64,000 nucleotides of DNA from Hydractinia symbiolongicarpus (Eukaryota; Cnidaria; Hydrozoa; Anthoathecata; Hydractiniidae). The notes below the pieces were generated by a model that saw only the letters and a list, made by a program, of their open reading frames with translations, was not told where the DNA came from and did no database searches. Where the stretch lies: the NCBI RefSeq assembly GCF_029227915.1, contig NC_079888.1, positions 18,146,001 to 18,210,000 of the forward strand, in the 5' to 3' direction. Positions 5,356 through 62,461 of this stretch are shown here, piece by piece. A program made the translations under genes and the position numbers. The number at the start of each line of letters is the position of its first letter. Position 1 is the stretch's first letter.

Positions 5356-5517
5356 TACAGGCAGATTAACTCAAATTTGCTATAATATGATTAAAATGTG
5401 AAATATGATAACTTACCCTCGGAAAGCGAACATTTAAGAAAAAACGAAAATTAATTTAAAGCAAAAGAACCGGAAATCGGACTTTTAGAAAAAGCAAAGA
5501 TTTTAAATTAATCTGTT

Positions 5518-5728
5518 GTTTTCATCCAGGCCTATAAAAAGTTAAAAAAGAAAATTACTTTAATTGCTATGATCTGATTGGTTAATTTCGATCCTCTAAT
5601 TATCTCCGTAATTAATAAATAGCCAAAGATGATTTCGGTCATTGCCTGTCGATGACAGCTGTAGCTGTCGAAAGGTACGCTAGAACAAGCTTGCTTATTC
5701 ATGACATGATAATATTTATATTATTCAA
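5518..5728. repeat. Right arm of ~205-bp inverted repeat
   Basis: Inverted partner of 3626-3833; ends in TTATATTATTCAA, the complement of the TTGAATAATATAG-type left end. Confidence 0.7.
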
Positions 5729-7813
5729 AGAGGAACAAAAGAGTAACGTTTGACTAACAAACTAAATAATCTCACTTCTTAAAAAGGTTGCTAATTTAAG
5801 AAGAAAAGGACGGTTTTTAGGGTAAACCTTTAGAACAACGTTGTTCCCAGGTCATATTATTTCTTTAATGATTTAACAGCTAAGGGGCAAAAAACAAACA
5901 AGCAGGTTATGTAACTAAGCATCTACGTTAGATTCAAGTCAGCGCATAGCCATAATAAAGAGAAACAATTAAAATCAGGTGCTTATAAATTTAGTTGAAG
6001 TTTAAAGAATAATTTAAAAAATGTTTCTTTACTACGTGCATAAAAAAATTAATAAATGTATATATAAAATAAATACAGTTTTTATACCTTAGCAAATTTG
6101 TTTTTATATTCACCCCACATTTGAGTGTTCTATTAACCGCCTCTTCCCTCACCTTTTCGGACATAAGCCAATTTATTATAGTATTTAGAATATAGCCGTT
6201 TTTTCAGAGAGGGTTAAAACACGTTGACCTCTAATTCTCCCGGCTCCAATGTCACGTGGACAACGTTTGATTACGGGAAAACACGGATGTTTCACGGTGA
6301 AATTCTTTCAGGAGAAACTTTGACTAACCAAGAAGTACAAATATATGAATTACAGTAAAGCTAAGTTGGCGAAAACTGACTTAAAACTACAATACGCCAG
6401 GTTAAAAGTTAGAAAACAATTATTTATTAAAATTTTAACCCTGATTTATGATTTATGATGACTGCGTAAATGGCGTGTTTTCCCCTTAAGCTATAACGGC
6501 ATCTTCCGAAACACTGGCCTGTGATTGGCAAGAGCATGATGTGATATTTGCCCTGGATTTCGAATCACTATTATATTGCATGTCGAACAACCATAAACAC
6601 AACATGTCAACTTTTGAGTGTTTTCGATTTGCAGGCTCATGTACGATAAACAGCTCGCCGCAGGCTTATTTGAGATTTACAATAACACACTTCTACGCAG
6701 ATGATTTTTACAAACCTTAATACAATGTTGTGACGCGACTTGAACAATAAAAACAACCACCACGCAGAAATGCTTTGTGACGTCAAACTGGGGTTGCAAA
6801 AAATTTGTAAACAAACAGAAGTATGTTTTCGTTTCGTCCTGCTTATATTTGCAATACACAAATGTTGACAAAAATTCAGGTAAGGAGTTTTTTTGCTGTA
6901 TTTCTAACTTTTTTTAAATGTATTTTCTACAATTTTGGTTACAACGAATAAATTTTTTTTAGCTTTTACTCAAAATGAGCAAGCATGTTCTGCAATATTT
7001 GCGTTTATGAAAAAATCCACGCTAAGGTCCGAAAAATCAGGAACACAGAGCATGCTGACGTCAGCAAAAAATAATTTTGATTACGATCGACTAGGATTTC
7101 GAATCTGGTGGCGTTTAAAATTGAATATAGTTCATAGTAGATTTGTATTTTAAGGAAATAGTATTGATAATTACTAAACTTTGGCGTTGCTTATAATTTG
7201 GAAAGAGTAGGTCAAATCTAACTCAGATGTTAAGAAGGAAGACTGTTTAATCTGTTGGAGTTAAGTTATTCCATACGTTTGATTTTTTGGGAAAAAAGAA
7301 GGTATCTTGAACTGCCTTGATGTCCAAACACACAACGATGCTTAAGTTACAGTACTTTGATTTCAATCTTATCATTTGTCAGTCATAACTACAAAGAATG
7401 AGAAGGGAAAACATGATCTGGTGTTTTATAAGTAAAAATTTTCATCTTTGCTCTAAAGAGTTTGTCTTTTTTCATTATTTTTTTTATCAATTACAGTCTC
7501 ACCTTAGACAAAGTCGTCAAAAAGTAAAAATGCCAGAGCATTCTCAATAAATTCTCAATAAACACAAGAAGGGGAAACGAAGAAATAAAATCAAAAAACT
7601 TTTAACATTTTTAATCTCGCCTACTTATATTTTATTATAGTATTTATTATTGTTTTTGTAAACAAATGTTGTTTGTGTCTTACAATATAATCAAGTTTAA
7701 AAGTCAACTTGAAGTTGGTTATACAGACACAAATATCTTAGAACAATTCAAGCACATTCAGCCTTATTAAAGAAGGCAAACGTTCTTAACAAAAATTCTG
7801 TTTGTTATTCAGC
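5729..7813. other. No gene seen; 5' flank of cytochrome b561
   Basis: Only short frames without recognisable features. A pyrimidine-rich tract ending in AG at 7812 just precedes the b561 start codon, so a 5' UTR splice acceptor (cis or trans) at that point is possible. Confidence 0.4.
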
Positions 7814-47172: not shown

Positions 47173-48174
47173 GTGACCATATATAGGAGTTTAAGAGGAC
47201 GTGCTGGAGAGCAAAAGATGGCCGATTTGCCAAAAGAAAGGTTCAACGAAGCATCACCATTCAGTTATTGCGGATTAGATTGTTTTGGTCCGTTCTTGAT
47301 CAAGGTAAGGAGAAGCGAGATGAAAAGGTATGGTGTATTGTTTACATGTTTGTCTAGCAGAGCTGTACACATTGAAATCGCAAGCAGTTTAGAAACTGAT
47401 ACGTTTATTTTGGCCCTTCGTCGCTTTGTCGGCAGAAGAGAAAACGTAAGGTATCTAAGATCTGATAATGGGAGTAACTTCGTTGGAAGTGATAATGAAT
47501 TAAAACGAGCTTTTTTAGAAAAGGATCATGAAAAAATCTAGTTTTTTCTAAACGAGTTAAACGCTGATTGGATATGGAACTTCAATCCACCAGCAGCCAG
47601 TCACATGGGAGGAGTTTGGGAGAGGCAGATAAGATCAGCCAGACAAATTCTAACATCATTGCTAAAGACCCACGATTCAAGTTTAGATGATGAATCATTA
47701 AACACCCTCCTCATTGAAACGGAAGCCATATTAAACTCAAGACCCCTAACAGTCGATACCCTCAGTGACGCGAATAGCTTCATACCAATATCTCCATCAA
47801 ATATCTTGACAATGAAGTCAGATGTCGTGTTGCCACCACCGGGAGAGTTTCCGAAACCTGATGTTTATTCGAGGAAAAAAGTTCAACACATAGCAAATGA
47901 ATTCTGGATTAGATGGAGAAAGGAATTTCTTTCAACCCTTCAGGAACGTCGACGTTGGAACACGATTAAACGTAATTTTGAGGTTGGAGACATCGTCATA
48001 TTTAAAGACTCAACCATGTTTACTGTTCGAAATCGATGGCCGTTAGCAAGAATTGTGAGCGTCGTGTCAGATAAGCATGGAATAGTGAGAATTGTGAACA
48101 TTCGAATGAGCGGATCTCGAGTCAAAATGCAACGGCCGATATCAAAAGTAGTTTTGCTTTTGGAAAACGAATAG
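47173..48174 (+). pseudogene. BEL integrase and C-terminal domain
   Basis: Opens after the deletion with YRSLRGRAGEQKMADLPKER (C-terminal edge of the zinc domain; the His/Cys ligands are lost). Catalytic triad: Asp in YCGLDCFGPFLIK, Asp in LRSDNGSNFVG, and, after a TAG at 47539-47541, Glu in MGGVWERQIRSA. The C-terminal part from 47605 is open to 48174 with RTLPLTVDTL-type sequence (NSRPLTVDTLSD), RRRWNTIKRNFEVGDIVIF and a short tail. This domain order is BEL/Pao. The lost zinc domain and stop make it inactive. Confidence 0.82.
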
Positions 48175-51320: not shown

Positions 51321-51515
51321 CTTTGTTTTAAACTGGGGTAATAAGTGGAGTCGTTACTCTCCAAAGACAAGATCATGTGTGATCAAACCCCCTTGCTAAC
51401 TTAATTTTTATGTGATTTTGTTTTATTTTTGACTGGGGTAATAAGTGGAGTCGTCACTCTCGAAATCAAGACTGAATGTAGTCAAGCCCCCTTGCTAACT
51501 CATTCTGGTTAAAAT
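51321..51515. repeat. Two 100-bp tandem repeats after the USP stop codon
   Basis: ACTGGGGTAATAAGTGGAGT at 51332 recurs at 51432; both copies end CCCCCTTGCTAACT. On the minus strand they fall just after the stop of the USP frame (51520). Confidence 0.9.
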
Positions 51516-51519
51516 ATTT

Positions 51520-51924
51520 TTATCTCAGCTCATCTAAAAAGAAAACATATGACTCGTGACTGTTAATAAGGCGGTCATGACAGAAAATTAATGCTCTATT
51601 TTTGCAATGTATCCACCTGTAAACCATTTGGTCGAAGGCTACGGTTGTGTAGTGACCATTATTTAAGTTGCCGCAATGGTTGATAATAGCCCTTAATTGA
51701 AAATTTTTACAAAATTTCACTTCTCCATCTACGGTAAAAGGTATGGAAAGGGTACCTGGGTAAGCAGTAATACGGGAGGCAATTTTTGACACTAGGCCGT
51801 TGGCACTGCCAAAACGTTTTAGCTGTAAAATGAGATGGGAACCGCACGACACTACCTCTTTTTCAACCAGAGCAGTTTGATGAGCGTTGCAAACATGCCA
51901 GAAGTAGGCATTGGTGTCTGACAA
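51520..51924 (-). pseudogene. Ubiquitin-specific protease, C-terminal half (His box)
   Basis: Second part of the USP domain fused to the retrotransposon. It has FWHVCNAHQTALVEKEVVSC at the zinc-finger end, LILQLKRFGSANG (the conserved L-x-L-K-R-F), and the catalytic His box LNNGHYTTVAF, then WIHCKNRALIF and a final SYVFFLDE matching the usual Y-x-L-F/Y-Y tail. Ends at a TGA or equivalent stop at 51520-51522. The region between this frame and 52136 contains further fingers sequence (CNSCHITSSSEVI type) in another frame, so the domain was once continuous. Confidence 0.8.
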
Positions 51925-52135
51925 CTCCTCGTTCCAAAGAAATTATCTAAGGAAGATTGTAACGTAGGGTGCAGAGAAAGTTGGATGCATGGTGCTATAA
52001 CTTCTGAGGAGCTGGTAATATGACATGAATTGCAAGTGGTTGATGTCTTGATGCCAATACTATAAGACTTCCAAGAAATGGAAAGTCTAATGACAGACCA
52101 AGTAGGAGATATTCAAGAACCTCGGGGACGTCGTG

Positions 52136-53344
52136 CTAAGCAAAGATATTAAATGCACTTCCCTTCGCAGCTGAGATATGATGTTTCATAGCACGCAAAA
52201 AATGGGAGGGATCAACTGGACTTCTAGAAACAGCCAAACTTTGAAGAACACCTACAAATGCTTCGCCTAACTTTGAGGTTGTTTTGCTGACAGAAATGGC
52301 TTCTTTAACTTTTGGAAGGTTATAAAAACATTTTAAGATTGAGTTTGCATAACATGTGTTTCCCAAGTTTTTTAGACCGCTATTCCTAAAATCAGGGTTA
52401 GATGGCAATGCAACTGTTGTTTTGGAAGACCTTGTAGCAAGTTTTTTGGGTTTTTTGATTTTACAAGATTTTGTGTGACTTGCGGAAGATTTCTCAGGGG
52501 TTTTTGATTTCTTACATTCCATATTTGTAACAGAAGAAACTTCAGGAATGATTGGGGCCTTTTCAGGCTCAATCCAAGTGGTAGAATTTCGAGACATCCA
52601 AATGTAAAAAGAAGCACTCATGAAGGTAAAAGTTAGGGATTTTAATAGGGAACGTAAAGACTTGTTAGGGAAACCAAGGCGACGAAAACAGGTCCTTACT
52701 GATTCTGAACAGAAACCCCTTGCACCCACCTCAATGGCAAAGAAATGCACGATCAATCCATTGTTCTTCTCAGCATAACAAAGTGAAGAATATTTGTTAA
52801 GCTTTCGTTTGTGCCAATATTCCGTATTCTCTTCACATGGACAAGTCAGTTCTACCATAATTACAGATTTGGAAGAACTGGATATTAATAACACGTCTGG
52901 GCGTAGTTGTGTTATTGCAATGTATGGTGGAACAACTAAAACGGAATCTAAATCTGACAGTACTTTCCAATCGGAAGCAAGGTGAAAAAGGCCTGGACAC
53001 TTTGTATGCCCCTTATTAGATGGTGATTGACCGACCGGAATGAAATTAATTTTGTTGCACTTGGAAACCTTAAGAGGTTCATATGATACCAAAGACTCTT
53101 TTAATGCCTTAACCAAAACTATTAAAACCGAGTCATGACGGTATGTGTATCTACCCTGCGTAAGGGAGGTCCTACAGGCACCCAATATGTGAGAGACATT
53201 TGAGGATGGTTTCTTGCACAGAATGCAACTTTTGTCTTTCTCAATTCCCCATCTCACAAGATTGGTTGGAGAGGGAAGGGTGTCGTAGGTTGCCCCTATA
53301 CAAAAGGAAGTTAGACATTGTGGCAGTGAAGAATTGTTCTCCAA
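52136..53344 (-). CDS. Retrotransposon zinc knuckle + REL endonuclease fused to USP (Cys box)
   Basis: One 402-codon minus-strand frame, no internal stop. Residues 1-60: zinc knuckle CILCKKPSSNVSHILGAC (CCHC) as found after the RT in R2/R4/NeSL-type elements. Residues ~110-200: restriction-like endonuclease core, TQLRPDVLLISSSSKSVIMV ELTCP, i.e. the PD...E-x-T pattern of PD-(D/E)XK enzymes that nick the target. Residues ~270-330: basic Lys/Ser linker. Residues ~335-400: start of a ubiquitin-specific protease, GLKNLGNTCYANSILKCF with the catalytic Cys in the canonical box, then KVKEAISVSKTTS. The frame ends at a TAG (52136-52138) immediately before HDVPEVLEYLL, the expected USP continuation, so a Gln-to-stop change is likely. 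A cysteine protease of USP type joined to a retrotransposon is unusual. Confidence 0.8.
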   Translation of the reverse strand: MENNSSLPQCLTSFCIGATYDTLPSPTNLVRWGIEKDKSCILCKKPSSNVSHILGACRTSLTQGRYTYRHDSVLIVLVKALKESLVSYEPLKVSKCNKINFIPVGQSPSNKGHTKCPGLFHLASDWKVLSDLDSVLVVPPYIAITQLRPDVLLISSSSKSVIMVELTCPCEENTEYWHKRKLNKYSSLCYAEKNNGLIVHFFAIEVGARGFCSESVRTCFRRLGFPNKSLRSLLKSLTFTFMSASFYIWMSRNSTTWIEPEKAPIIPEVSSVTNMECKKSKTPEKSSASHTKSCKIKKPKKLATRSSKTTVALPSNPDFRNSGLKNLGNTCYANSILKCFYNLPKVKEAISVSKTTSKLGEAFVGVLQSLAVSRSPVDPSHFLRAMKHHISAAKGSAFNIFA

Positions 53345-53670
53345 GATAAATCATTTTTCACATAAGAGCACCATTTTGTCCAATTGCCTTGCAAATGCAA
53401 CTGTACAGCTCTGGCATGGTAAATGTCTTCTTCATATTCTTCAATGATATTGGAAACAAGCTTTCGGTAAGTATAAGTGCCTTTTGGTGGTATATTTTTG
53501 TGGTCTAAGAGCCCTAAGCCAGCTCGACCAGTCTGATGCAAACCTAAAATCCTTTTAAAATTGAGCTGACTATCCGCCGAAAGAACTGCCTCACTAACTT
53601 TCCAATTTCCAGCTTTTAAATCTGGTACGCACTTAGACACACAAGGGTCGACAGAATCTCTTAGTAACAA
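53311..53670 (-). pseudogene. Retrotransposon ORF2, post-RT linker
   Basis: Frame upstream of the zinc knuckle: VDPCVSKCVPDLKAGNWKVS, LNFKRILGLHQTGRAGLGLL, then IYHARAVQLHLQGNW. It overlaps the next frame by a frameshift around 53340. The preceding stretch (53670-53811) reads VFIRKWLKLHHSISNISLYC in another frame, a conserved block after the RT thumb in REL-type elements. Confidence 0.65.
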
Positions 53671-53811
53671 ATGTCCACTGATTTTGGCAGATTTGAGAAC
53701 AGATGCAAGACTTTTCAGGGGAAGAGGACAAGGCGATGTCGAGCAATATAAGGAAATGTTGGAAATTGAATGATGCAGTTTTAACCATTTCCTAATGAAA
53801 ACAGAAAATCT

Positions 53812-54183
53812 TTAATTAGCAAATATTTCTTGGGTTTAAGGCAATAAATAACAAATTAAATTTTGATAAATTTTCTCCCTGATCTTTGTCAGAGCATCTT
53901 CAGATCACAAGTAAAAACGTCTTTCAACATGCATGTACAAAATGTTAAAAATTCTCTTGACAAAAATAAAATGTATAAAAATCGTTTATTAACAATAAAA
54001 GTCGTTAAAAATTATAGTATGTTTTCCCAAATTTCAGATAATCGTCTTATTTCATCTTTTTTGTTCAATAAATCCGATTTATGTTGTTTAATCGCTAATG
54101 CCTCTTTAAATTTTCTTTTAATAAAATTGTTTTCCCTGTTTTGTTATTTATTGCCTTAAACCCAAGAAATATTTGCTAATTAA
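53812..54183. mobile_element. ~370-bp MITE with 40-bp perfect inverted ends
   Basis: Left end TTAATTAGCAAATATTTCTT continues with GGGTTTAAGGCAATAAATAA; the right end is the exact complement, ending AATTAA at 54183. TTAA at both edges suggests a TTAA target duplication, though it is also part of the palindrome. It splits the RT thumb region. The plus frame inside (53863-54159) has no recognisable features. Confidence 0.8.
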
Positions 54184-54810
54184 CTATGAAAAGGCAAACC
54201 TATAAAGAATTCAGAAAATCTTTGCTCTAGTTTTGTGATAGTAAATGGAGAAACTTCATAAATTAATAATGGCCAGCGGATTCTGGGAATTAACAGATGG
54301 TGTAAAAACCAAACCTTATGGACCCCTTTATGAAAGGACCTGTCTATAGCTATAAATTTGTCTTCGGCATCATTTAGAAATTCTTGTATTGCAGCAGAAT
54401 CAGACAAGGATGAGTTTATTGTTCTGCCTAAAAACCTAATTGGATTAGAATAAATGGATGGAATTTTTTCTCTGCCAACTGTAAACGGTGAACTTTGGAC
54501 GACTTTTCCCTTATCAATAACAATGCTGCGTGATTTAGAAAGCCTAAAAGACATGCCTACCCAATCAAGAGCTGTTGTACACCTGTTTAATAAATTTTGA
54601 GTACTTGGAATTCACGTGGACATTAAGAATATATCATCCATAAAAGCTTTTATTGGGGGTTGGTCAGGGATTTTGTTTTTATTATCTTCAGTATCAATAA
54701 GGCTGGGCGTAACAAACACATATTCAATAATAACGTTTATAGCTGCAAGAAATAGTATATATTTTAGCAAGCAGCTTAAATTCTCATTAAATTTGGATTT
54801 TTGTTGAGAT
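54180..54810 (-). pseudogene. Retrotransposon RT palm end and thumb (R4/NeSL-like)
   Basis: Minus-strand reading from about 54810: IKAFMDDIFLM carries the catalytic motif C as FMDD, then a frame break, NLLNRCTTALDWVGMSFRLS and KSRSIVIDKGKV (motif D/E), RFLGRTINSSLSDSAA, and the thumb GVHKVWFLHHLLIPRIRWPL. The remainder of the RT and the N-terminus are absent; upstream DNA is non-coding, so the copy is 5'-truncated. The MITE at 53812-54183 interrupts the frame just after EQRFSEFF. Confidence 0.75.
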
Positions 54811-54902
54811 ACTAGTCTGTTCTATTGAGTCAATCACAATTTTGACAAAAAAACAACAACAACAATTATTGGTGGAAATAGTTATAGCTAAATACCCCAA
54901 AA

Positions 54903-56081
54903 TGTCCCATACGTAAACGTGTCCCATTGCAAATCACATTCAAACATTTCTTATTTTTACTGTTCAGGTGTTGTGAATAAATGAAAAGTCAGTGTTTCTA
55001 GTTGTATTAGTTGTTAAGAAAGATTTCTTAGTTTTTTAAGAACATTTTTTTTAACTAGTCAGCTATAATAGCTTCTAGACTGGGTGGTCAGACTTTTGTG
55101 TCCCATACGTAACATTTTTCCAAAAATGCCCATAAAAATTTTCACAAGATGAATTTTAAATTAAATTAGCCATTTAAGTCTCCTCTGCATCTCTGCTAAT
55201 TTGACAATATCAAGATTTTTCTTGTACTTACACTTTGTAAGAAATAGTAATAAGCTATGGAATTGGATTTTAACCACCATAAATGTCCTATACGTAAGAC
55301 CTATATTTGTATTATTTTTTCAAAGCCAGAAAGAGTAAAATTGCATGTGTTATTTTGCCTGTACTTTGTCACCCTTCCCTAAAGACTGATGTTCCATACG
55401 TAACAAAATGTCCCATATGTAATGCTTTTGTTAAAAAAAGGCAAAAAGTGAGCTCTTTTTGACACTGATTTACAGTCACAATCTGACTTATAATTGCTTA
55501 TATCTAAACTAATAAAAAAGGCTATTTAGTTTCGAACCTTATCAATTATTCTACTTTTTTAAAGATCAAACTAATTTGATTTAGCCTTCAACATACAGTA
55601 CTTTGTTCAGCAGTTTTCTAAGCCATTTACTTTTTATCATGACCAGTTAGATTTTCTTTCATTATAACTTTGAGAAAAAGACTTGAAAGCAAAATAAATT
55701 AAAAATGTTACGTATGGGGCAATTTTGGTTCAATAAATTAAGTTATTATTAACCGAGATAACAAAACCTTGATTTAACAAATATATAAGTCTTTCAGTCA
55801 TAAAGTATCTCAAATGTGTGATATTTAGTTAGAAACTTTATATTTTCTGTAGGCCCACTGTTTTGGTTTTTAAGTACATCGGCAGGAGCACCTTGTGGTA
55901 AACATTGTCCCATACGTAACACAAAACTGTGTTGTTCTTCCTCTTGGGTTTTCTTGTAAACAAAATTTATTATATAAAATGTGCCCTAGGGTTCCTGAAA
56001 GTGTTTTCAATTAAGTTTTGGAATGAAAACATTTGTTTAGAGTGATAAGCTTCCAAAGTAAGAGCTGTTATGTATGAGACA
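54903..56081. repeat. Dispersed 15-bp motif TGTCCCATACGTAAC, 8-9 copies
   Basis: Copies or one/two-base variants near 54903, 55099, 55284, 55390, 55409, 55906 on plus; 55707 and 56067 in reverse orientation. Spacer sequences are unrelated. No gene in this stretch. Confidence 0.85.
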
Positions 56082-60045: not shown

Positions 60046-60924
60046 AGCGGACAGGAAGAAACAGGAGTGGGTGAAGGTATCAACAAAGATTTGATTTGCT
60101 CATTTTTCTCAGAGCTTAGTACCTCTCACATGATTGGGTGTTGTGAGAAAGTACCAACCATAAGACATGACATGTCGGCTGAGCATTGGCAAGCAGTTGG
60201 TCGAATACTTCTTTATGCCTTGGATATTGGATACTTTCCATTGTATATCTCACCAGTATTCATCATTGCATGCCTCTACGGTGAAGCAGTGTTGACACAA
60301 GATGAGTTGATATTCTCGTTTAAACAATATGTATCAGTAGAGGAAAAAGACACTATCACTGAGATGATGGAAACATTTGAGGAGAACAATGATGCCCTAA
60401 TGGATATGTTGTGTGCATATAAATGCCACAAAATTGTGAAAAAAGAAAATTTTAAACCTGTTATTCTTGAATTAGCTCATCAAGAACTTATACAAAAACC
60501 TAAATATGTAGCAGGTTGTTTTGCTGAAGTTCTAAAATCATCCAAAAAAGAGATACTGTCATTACAGTGACTGAAAAACATTCATAAAGCAAGAACACCT
60601 TCAGCCAGAAAAGTTATCAAGAACTTAGAACTTCCAAGGGATATGAGTGAACAGCAACATTCAATTGCTTCATATCTGACACAATTCATAAAATCTTTGA
60701 CTGGCAAAGAATTATCAAAGTTTCTTCGCTATGTTACTGGAAGCGATAACTTGTGTGATAATATTGTTTTAACATTTGCAGATCAAGATATAAGAGCCCC
60801 AAGAGCACATGTTTGTATTTCTCAATTGGAACTGGCACAAACTTATTCATGCTACAATGATCTTGCAGAAGAGTTTGCAAATATACTTAATGATGTTAAC
60901 AGCTTTCGTTTTTCTTTTATATAG
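60046..60924 (+). pseudogene. HECT E3 ubiquitin-ligase-like domain
   Basis: HECT ligases take ubiquitin onto a cysteine and pass it to substrates. After a TTTTTAG the frame reads GQEETGVGEGINKDLICSFF (N-lobe start, G-x-G-x-x-R/K-x-l), HWQAVGRILLYALDIGYFPL, YISPVFIIACLYGE, and the C-lobe: KFLRYVTGSDNLCDN, FADQDIRAPRAHVCISQLEL and AQTYSCYNDLAEEF. The Cys in AHVC sits where the catalytic Cys lies (normally A-H-T-C-F-N-x-L-x-L-P). One in-frame TGA at 60568-60570 interrupts it; the same frame resumes. Total ~290 residues, slightly shorter than a standard HECT (~350). It resembles the G2E3-like multicopy families of fish and invertebrates. Confidence 0.65.
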
Positions 60925-61262: not shown

Positions 61263-62461
61263 ATGGATAAATGTGTCTTTTGATCATGTACTATATCTGA
61301 TAAATATTGCATAAACTGTGGAGCAAAAGTCTCAACCAATGAACATGATTTGATTATTTCAGAATATTTTCGAAAAGGATACCAATATCGAACATTACTT
61401 AAATATTTGCACTGTCATCATGGATTTAAAATGTCATTGCGAACATTGAAATCACGATTGAAAGCTCTGGGTTTAAAACGCCGAAATTGCTTGACTCATA
61501 AGTCGTTGTCTAGAATGGAAAACGCTATGCGAAATGAACTCAAGGGCCCCACTAGGACAAGCGGTTACAGGACTATGTGGAGCAGGCTAAGACTTTTTCA
61601 TGGCGTTTTCGTCCCAAGAGATGCTGTAATGATTAAACTGAAACAACTTGACCCCCAAGGTTGCATAGAACGTGGGAAACGTAGATTAGTGAGAAGGCGT
61701 TATAATGTACGAGGACCGAACGATATGGTTACGATAAGTTAAAGCCGTATGGATTACCAATTCATGGTTGCATTGACGGATATAGCCGAAAAATTATATG
61801 GCTCAGAGCAGTACATTCGAATAACAATCCAGAAGTCATTGCACGGTTATTTTTAAATGCCGTCCGAGAAATAGGTGGATGTCCAGAGAAAGTGAGGAGT
61901 GATTGTGGTACTGAAAATGTAACTCTAGCTCTTATTCAATGTTATTTGCGGCGTAATCACGGTGATGAGAACGCAGGTACAAAGTCACATATGTACGGTC
62001 CTTCACACAGTAATCAACGGATTGAGGGATGGTGGTCATTTCTTCGCCGAAATAGAAGCTCTTTTATGATAGATTTTCTTAAAGAAATGGTTAATGATGG
62101 ATTATATAATCCTGCTAATGAGCTAGAGTTTTATTGCTTCCAGTACTGTTTTGCCTCCGTGTTACAGAATGATCTTGACGAGGTAACAGAACATTGGAAT
62201 TCTCACCTCATTCGGAAGTCCAGGTATGACACGGTTTCTGGTATTCCTGATGAATTGTTCCATTTCCCAGAAACAATTGAAGGGGAGAGTCGTCTGAAAT
62301 TATGTGATAGTGATGATTTGGATGAAATGGATGATGAGGACGAGAATAATTACTACGAATACTTCAACTACTTGATTGATTTTCTGGGAATGTCGCAACC
62401 TGAGAACTTCCACTCGGCCAAGCATTTGTATACCGTCATGTTATCACATGCGGAAAAATAA
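61263..62461 (+). pseudogene. DDE integrase-like transposase with zinc ribbon and HTH
   Basis: RNase H-fold integrase of a multicopy animal family. Layout: zinc-ribbon head (KCVF-stop-SC, YCINCGAK) with a TGA at 61281-61283; HTH region (GFKMSLRTLKSRLKALGLKR); linker (GPTRTSGYRTMWSRLRL; LVRRRYNVRGPND); catalytic core GLPIHGCIDGYSRKIIWLRA, Asp in VRSDCGTEN, Glu in NQRIEGWWSFLRRN; then a HWNSHLIRKSRYD...PDEL tail and an acidic C-terminus. Between GPND (61730) and GYDKLKPYG the frame shifts and a few residues are gone, including the expected WHID motif with the first catalytic Asp. So it is inactive in this copy. It lies 340 bp downstream of the HECT-like gene, same strand. Confidence 0.7.

Follow-up and report, generated by a model that had tools for sequence, protein, structure and literature searches.

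A hydroid lineage of non-LTR retrotransposons that encodes a C-terminal domain of the ubiquitin-specific protease family

Some non-long-terminal-repeat (non-LTR) retrotransposons of the NeSL/Utopia kind, which use a restriction-like endonuclease (RLE), bear an N-terminal Ulp1-like cysteine protease (PMC4640811). Ginger1 transposases carry a C-terminal OTU or Ulp1 domain, and a Trichomonas protein joins transposase_11 to peptidase C19 (PMC2836005). Here we describe a lineage of retrotransposons from the hydroid Hydractinia symbiolongicarpus that encodes one protein of ∼1420 aa comprised of a reverse transcriptase (RT), a CCHC zinc knuckle, an RLE and a C-terminal domain of the ubiquitin-specific protease (USP) family. 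A decayed copy lies on the minus strand at positions 51520-54790 of the window, by which we mean the whole 64,000-nucleotide stretch that was analysed.

Like some NeSL/Utopia elements, the hydroid elements are of RLE type and carry a cysteine protease from the ubiquitin and SUMO pathways, but the NeSL/Utopia protease is Ulp1-like and N-terminal whereas theirs is a USP at the C-terminus. They likewise resemble the Ginger1 and Trichomonas proteins, one of which is a C19 case, in adding a deubiquitinase or SUMO-protease to a mobile-element enzyme; those, however, belong to DNA transposons without RT or RLE. R2 elements (structures 9nl3, 9nl2, 9dou and 8gh6) lack the C-terminal USP. Rfam searches of the window (64 kb, gathering scores) and of the intact copy L029 (E≤1), which cover two copies with their flanks, gave no match. 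No R2-type 28S rRNA target was thus seen, and we do not claim the R2 clade name; nor do we claim that of NeSL. The FMDD box of the hydroid elements also differs from the usual R2 box. Cellular USPs (USP2, USP8, USP21, USP46) share the fold, Cys box, His box, Asn/Asp and CxxC...CxxC zinc ribbon but are unfused, while the hydroid USP is joined to RT-RLE. Ulp1 and OTU families were absent at E≤0.01 from 6 full-length proteins and from 35 relatives without a full USP. Among the open-access papers listed in our searches we found no prior description of a USP in a non-LTR retrotransposon. The H. symbiolongicarpus genome paper reports 50% repeats with long interspersed nuclear elements (LINEs) at 4%; retrotransposon, non-LTR and ubiquitin, sought as whole words, are absent from its main text (PMC11067881).

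An earlier note, made from the letters of the window alone, had proposed an in-frame RT-RLE-USP fusion and had suggested looking for full-length copies elsewhere. We searched the same genome (481 Mb, 76 contigs, with the window on contig 14) and found such copies carrying all three domains in a single stop-free frame. In the window copy, stops, changes of frame and an insert interrupt the coding sequence. The frames of loci L029, L030 and L031 measure 1426, 1426 and 1423 aa, and in the L029 protein RVT_1 matches residues 339-609 (E=8.1e-16) and UCH residues 1137-1423. Over ∼5.5 kb of DNA, L030 is 99.75% identical to L029 (5571 bp) and L031 99.56%, and the 3′ flanks of L029 and L030 differ. Because these near-identical intact copies contain the USP, the USP-bearing element must have been mobile recently. 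Counted by eye, ten or more of the 150 UCH matches listed fall in frames of 1345 aa or longer that contain no stop, and six of these frames are exactly 1426 aa long; copies are dispersed on many contigs.

Searches with hidden Markov models (HMMs), which the note had recommended, detected UCH in the same protein as an RT and its CCHC knuckle, and a structure match backs the RLE assignment. RVT_1 matches the related protein P0121 at E=6.4e-19. In alignment A1 (21 sequences) the catalytic RT residues D539 and D540 and the knuckle ligands C879, C882, H891 and C896 are invariant, and C-terminal to the RT the knuckle is followed by a PD-(D/E)XK endonuclease, as in RLE-type non-LTR elements. Judged by their sequences, with the catalytic DD, knuckle and RLE and with dispersed, recently mobile copies, the elements appear to be RLE-type non-LTR retrotransposons.

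We then asked how regularly the USP accompanies the rest of the element. The protein P0204 (LOC130628696), from another locus, shares 391 of 422 residues (93%) with the window copy through the RLE, the linker and the start of the USP, which is not the picture of a host exon abutting a truncated element that the note had set against its own proposal. At least 111 own-genome matches to the window RLE-USP frame are among those listed, and at least 69 of them, the window included, cross the RLE-USP boundary (query residue ≤200 to ≥345), or at least 74 with a looser cut (≤250 to ≥340); 103 of 1137 candidates were scored, making these counts lower bounds. The note had also named copies consistently lacking the USP part as adverse, a pattern that the copies did not show. 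All 20 copies fetched from these matches match at least 70% of a USP by tblastn, though a second copy in a few loci may inflate this figure and the query contained the N-terminal USP half. To reduce that bias we added an RT-only query. Its 20 best matches include 17 that are followed on their own strand by UCH at no more than 5 kb, in 16 cases at 1.65-1.77 kb. Across all 131 RT matches listed, at least 40 have a same-strand UCH within 5 kb downstream, compared with 7 that have one upstream and 2 that have one on the opposite strand. The 40 is a floor since only the best candidates of both searches were scored (126 of 2542 for RT; 149 of 1015 for UCH).

The USP itself appears to be well preserved at its active site. 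All 172 USP segments retain the catalytic Cys; among the 123 segments covering all three catalytic sites, His is present in 118 and the full triad C-H-N/D in 110. The predicted structure has the USP fold with the fingers zinc ribbon (CxxC...CxxC), and its fold matches include USP2, USP46, USP21, USP1, USP36, USP18 with ISG15 and USP36 with Fubi, at ∼25-29% identity to USP2, USP8, USP21 and USP46 in structural alignments. A strict two-active-site motif pattern matched 42 of 60 full proteins; we judged it too narrow because the active-site columns are invariant in A1. In the 36 pairs with RT identities of 70-80%, identity is 45.6% in the USP and 15.0% in the linker. Sequence searches against the PDB gave, depending on the query, USP8 then USP2, 6tbm_Q then USP21 (query P0225), or USP2 as top matches. 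They thus yielded no single closest host USP, and since they put different USPs first we name no donor. Collectively, the sequences and the predicted structure show that the mobile unit includes the USP, that this domain has a USP fold and that its catalytic and zinc-binding residues have persisted despite large divergence.

Relatives were gathered by three protein searches with 126, 128 and 157 matches, of which the best 120 of each were taken; the third query contained RT and RLE only. Sixty of the 282 distinct proteins listed span RT, RLE and USP. Hosts named among the relatives are Hydractinia, Branchiostoma and a Pseudomonadales metagenome-assembled genome, whose two proteins we take to be contamination. 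Pattern searches of two further sets, viral_contigs and genome_contigs, gave 14 and 44 matches, none confirmed by tblastn. Of the 120 matches listed for the RT+RLE query, 76 carry a USP that scores above 60 bits. The other 44 are made up of 20 outgroup proteins ending 1-12 residues past the RLE (one from Branchiostoma), 12 ingroup proteins ending 0-33 residues past it, and 12 that are truncated, partial or relic. A careful tree (46 rows), built without P0225 and with P0252 (whose USP start we recognised by eye although the HMM did not detect it) and P0261 (a 24-bit relic) scored as USP-bearing, put the USP-bearing rows in one ingroup with 100/100 support and USPs in both of its halves. Four changes of USP presence suffice on this tree, which we read as one probable gain and three losses. 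A wider fast tree (104 rows), in which P0122, P0128 and P0159, whose ends are possibly missing, were scored as without USP, recovered the same ingroup with 7 changes and P0225 outside it.

The note had also called for a phylogeny of the USP against host USPs. Our tree, which comprised retro-USPs, bears this check out in part: the USP tree tracks the RT-RLE tree. For the 60 full proteins, 27 of 57 splits are common to both, with a mean of 0.155 and a maximum of 2 in 200 label shuffles, and of the 24 splits with strong support in the USP tree, 18 are strongly supported by RT-RLE as well. The agreement of the two trees indicates that the USP evolved together with RT-RLE. P0225, a public protein of 1266 aa, is a distant YADD-type element with 28% identity that also has a C-terminal USP; it sits on a long branch beside P0110 in the fast tree, and its USP is possibly from a second, independent capture.

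We propose, at a probability of about 0.62, that this is an RT-RLE-USP lineage whose fused USP is an active deubiquitinase that protects the element's protein or ribonucleoprotein (RNP) until integration. The element protein would bind its own RNA, as in R2, the RLE would nick the target and the RT would copy the RNA, with the USP sitting at that site. Because it is fused to the element protein, the USP would probably act in cis, on the element's RNP or on neighbouring proteins during target-primed reverse transcription. Its likeliest use would be to remove host-added ubiquitin from the element protein or RNP, which would thereby escape degradation long enough to integrate. In mouse, TEX19.1 promotes the polyubiquitylation of L1 ORF1p and its degradation, probably via UBR2 (PMC5570191), and a fused deubiquitinase would counter a defence of this kind. 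That a host deubiquitinase was captured once, deep in the history of the lineage, and kept as a cis-acting counter-defence enzyme is a more tentative suggestion, to which we give somewhat less than even odds.

Several observations weigh against this proposal. The USP is absent from some lineages within the ingroup (eight FMDDV rows, P0242/P0247/P0259, and P0249) and is therefore not indispensable, and the RT-RLE tree contradicts 3 of the 24 strong splits of the USP tree. Thirteen of the 123 triads are not C-H-N/D (7 with Ser third, 5 gapped, 1 with Tyr for His). The USP has diverged more quickly than the RT and the RLE. Pooled dN/dS (nonsynonymous to synonymous rates) in the window family is 0.58 and 0.54 for two parts of the USP, 0.83 for the RLE and 0.93 for the linker, from 21 mostly decayed copies (19 for the C-terminal USP part) compared in non-independent pairs; between families it is saturated (mean pS 0.75-0.84). 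Finally, 91 of the 131 RT matches listed have no listed downstream UCH; incomplete lists and decay may lie behind many of these, but genuinely USP-less RT copies may exist too.

The main rival, which we consider unlikely, is that an active fused USP targets host proteins at the insertion site, such as ubiquitinated histones or repair and replication factors, and so eases target cleavage and second-strand synthesis. The USP comes immediately after the endonuclease, for which homology to R2 implies contact with the target DNA, and Ulp1/OTU domains of transposases have been suggested to act on DNA-repair factors (PMC2836005). USP2, USP46, USP21, USP1 and USP36 among the fold matches would fit such a role, but we found no feature pointing to chromatin substrates and the retro-USPs are not specifically near one host USP. 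It is more doubtful still that the USP does not cleave ubiquitin, being instead dedicated to a ubiquitin-like modifier or chiefly a tether to ubiquitinated proteins: USP18 with ISG15, USP36 with Fubi and the seven Ser-bearing triads are in keeping with this, whereas the near-universal retention of Cys and His argues for catalysis. A host USP exon simply abutting a truncated element, which the truncation and the differing frames of the USP halves might suggest within the window alone, is ruled out by the recurrence of the RLE-USP junction across the genome and by single stop-free RT-RLE-USP frames, here and in proteins from other public sources.

If a single early capture, kept as a cis-acting counter-defence, is correct, ubiquitination of LINE RNPs would be an old, general host defence in animals, answered by the element's own fused eraser. 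Ulp1 and OTU proteases in mobile elements were already known, with their role unsettled. Here the protease of a retrotransposon clade is of a third ubiquitin-pathway type, its catalytic residues are conserved and the hydroid has intact copies of recent origin, which makes it testable whether ubiquitin erasure helps LINE integration and against which host ligase. There is also a warning for annotation, as P0089, a piece of RLE plus a USP, is named a USP17-like host gene in NCBI.

The window copy consists of the following parts, together with its 3′ untranslated region (3′UTR) and an insert resembling a miniature inverted-repeat transposable element (MITE).

51520..54790, minus strand: retrotransposon coding remnant, 5′-truncated within the RT (tblastn matches of P0122, P0113, P0121, P0001 and P0204 spanning 54779-51532)
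54165..54779, minus strand: C-terminal part of the RT, with AFMDDI at 54630-54647 (59% identity to P0122 residues 487-690)
53812..54183, no strand: MITE-like insert, 372 bp, with 44-nt terminal inverted repeats (ends 100% complementary)
53329..53811, minus strand: RT thumb and linker region (54-65% identity to P0121, P0122, P0128 and P0131)
53174..53227, minus strand: CCHC zinc knuckle CILCKKPSSNVSHILGAC (zf-RVT E=3.8e-5, below the Pfam cut-off)
52802..52906, minus strand: RLE core RPD...VELTCP...K, LRPDVLLI...VELTCP (motif position)
52421..52513, minus strand: Lys/Ser-rich RLE-USP linker (from sequence; the least conserved region among relatives)
52325..52378, minus strand: USP Cys box GLKNLGNTCYANSILKCF (PF00443 E=4.2e-9; best phmmer match in the PDB USP8)
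52136..52138, minus strand: stop codon within the USP domain (alignments to P0001 and P0204 continue beyond it)
51520..51942, minus strand: C-terminal USP half with second zinc-ribbon half, LQLKRF and His box (PF00443 E=9e-10, profile 144-253)
51433..51498, minus strand: 3′UTR motif, first copy, TTAGCAAGGGGG...TTACCCCAG (recurs in the 3′ region of L029, L030, L031 and seven other 8-kb loci)
51333..51399, minus strand: 3′UTR motif, second copy (recurs as the first)

The individual motifs that the note had reported are all present. The knuckle, the RLE core and the Cys box lie within one 404-aa frame running stop to stop at 52136-53350, in which the zf-RVT score is 24.7 bits against a Pfam cut-off of 27.5 and PF00443 profile positions 2-78 match the C-terminal part. 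The His box NNGHYTTVAF (51634-51663, minus strand) and the USP tail follow in a separate frame, and the FMDD motif lies upstream. Judged by eye, recognisable homology peters out upstream of CLLKYILFLAAINVIIEY, and because it fades near 54790, within the RT, we consider the copy 5′-truncated. An in-frame stop lies downstream of the FMDD box, the MITE-like insert interrupts the RT-linker region, the frame shifts near 53330 and further frame changes break the middle of the USP. The alignment shows substitutions at the third catalytic position, which falls within 51589-51618, and at one Cys of the zinc ribbon. The window copy is a dead fossil.

Some observations on noncoding parts may be added. 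The inverted ends of the MITE-like insert start with TTAA. The 3′UTR motif, of 50-67 nt with the form TTAGCAAGGGG...TTACCCCAG, is common to copies with far less similar proteins; it can form an outer G-C stem, and it could be an RNA signal for the RT. A sequence close to TGTCCCATACGTAACA occurs at least 6 times on both strands within ∼1 kb (54896-55921) adjoining the truncated 5′ end of the element. L029, L030 and L031 each start with a piece of their own 3′ end (∼480, 204 and 115 nt) at the same joining point (L029:9-492 matching 5377-5856; L030:287-490; the 5′ end of L031), and at three places UCH matches lie ∼5.37 kb apart, head to tail. In HeT-A/TART, a promoter in the 3′ end of one copy transcribes the copy downstream, and the starts of the intact copies look like the products of such transcription.

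Elsewhere in the window, DUF5641 (PF18701, E=2.4e-23), a domain that occurs in BEL/Pao-type elements, lies at 47542-48174 (plus strand). An integrase-core open reading frame (PF24764, E=4e-28) lies at 61706-62461 (plus strand), with a fragment of a HECT ubiquitin ligase (PF00632, E=4e-7) upstream on the same strand at 60571-60924.
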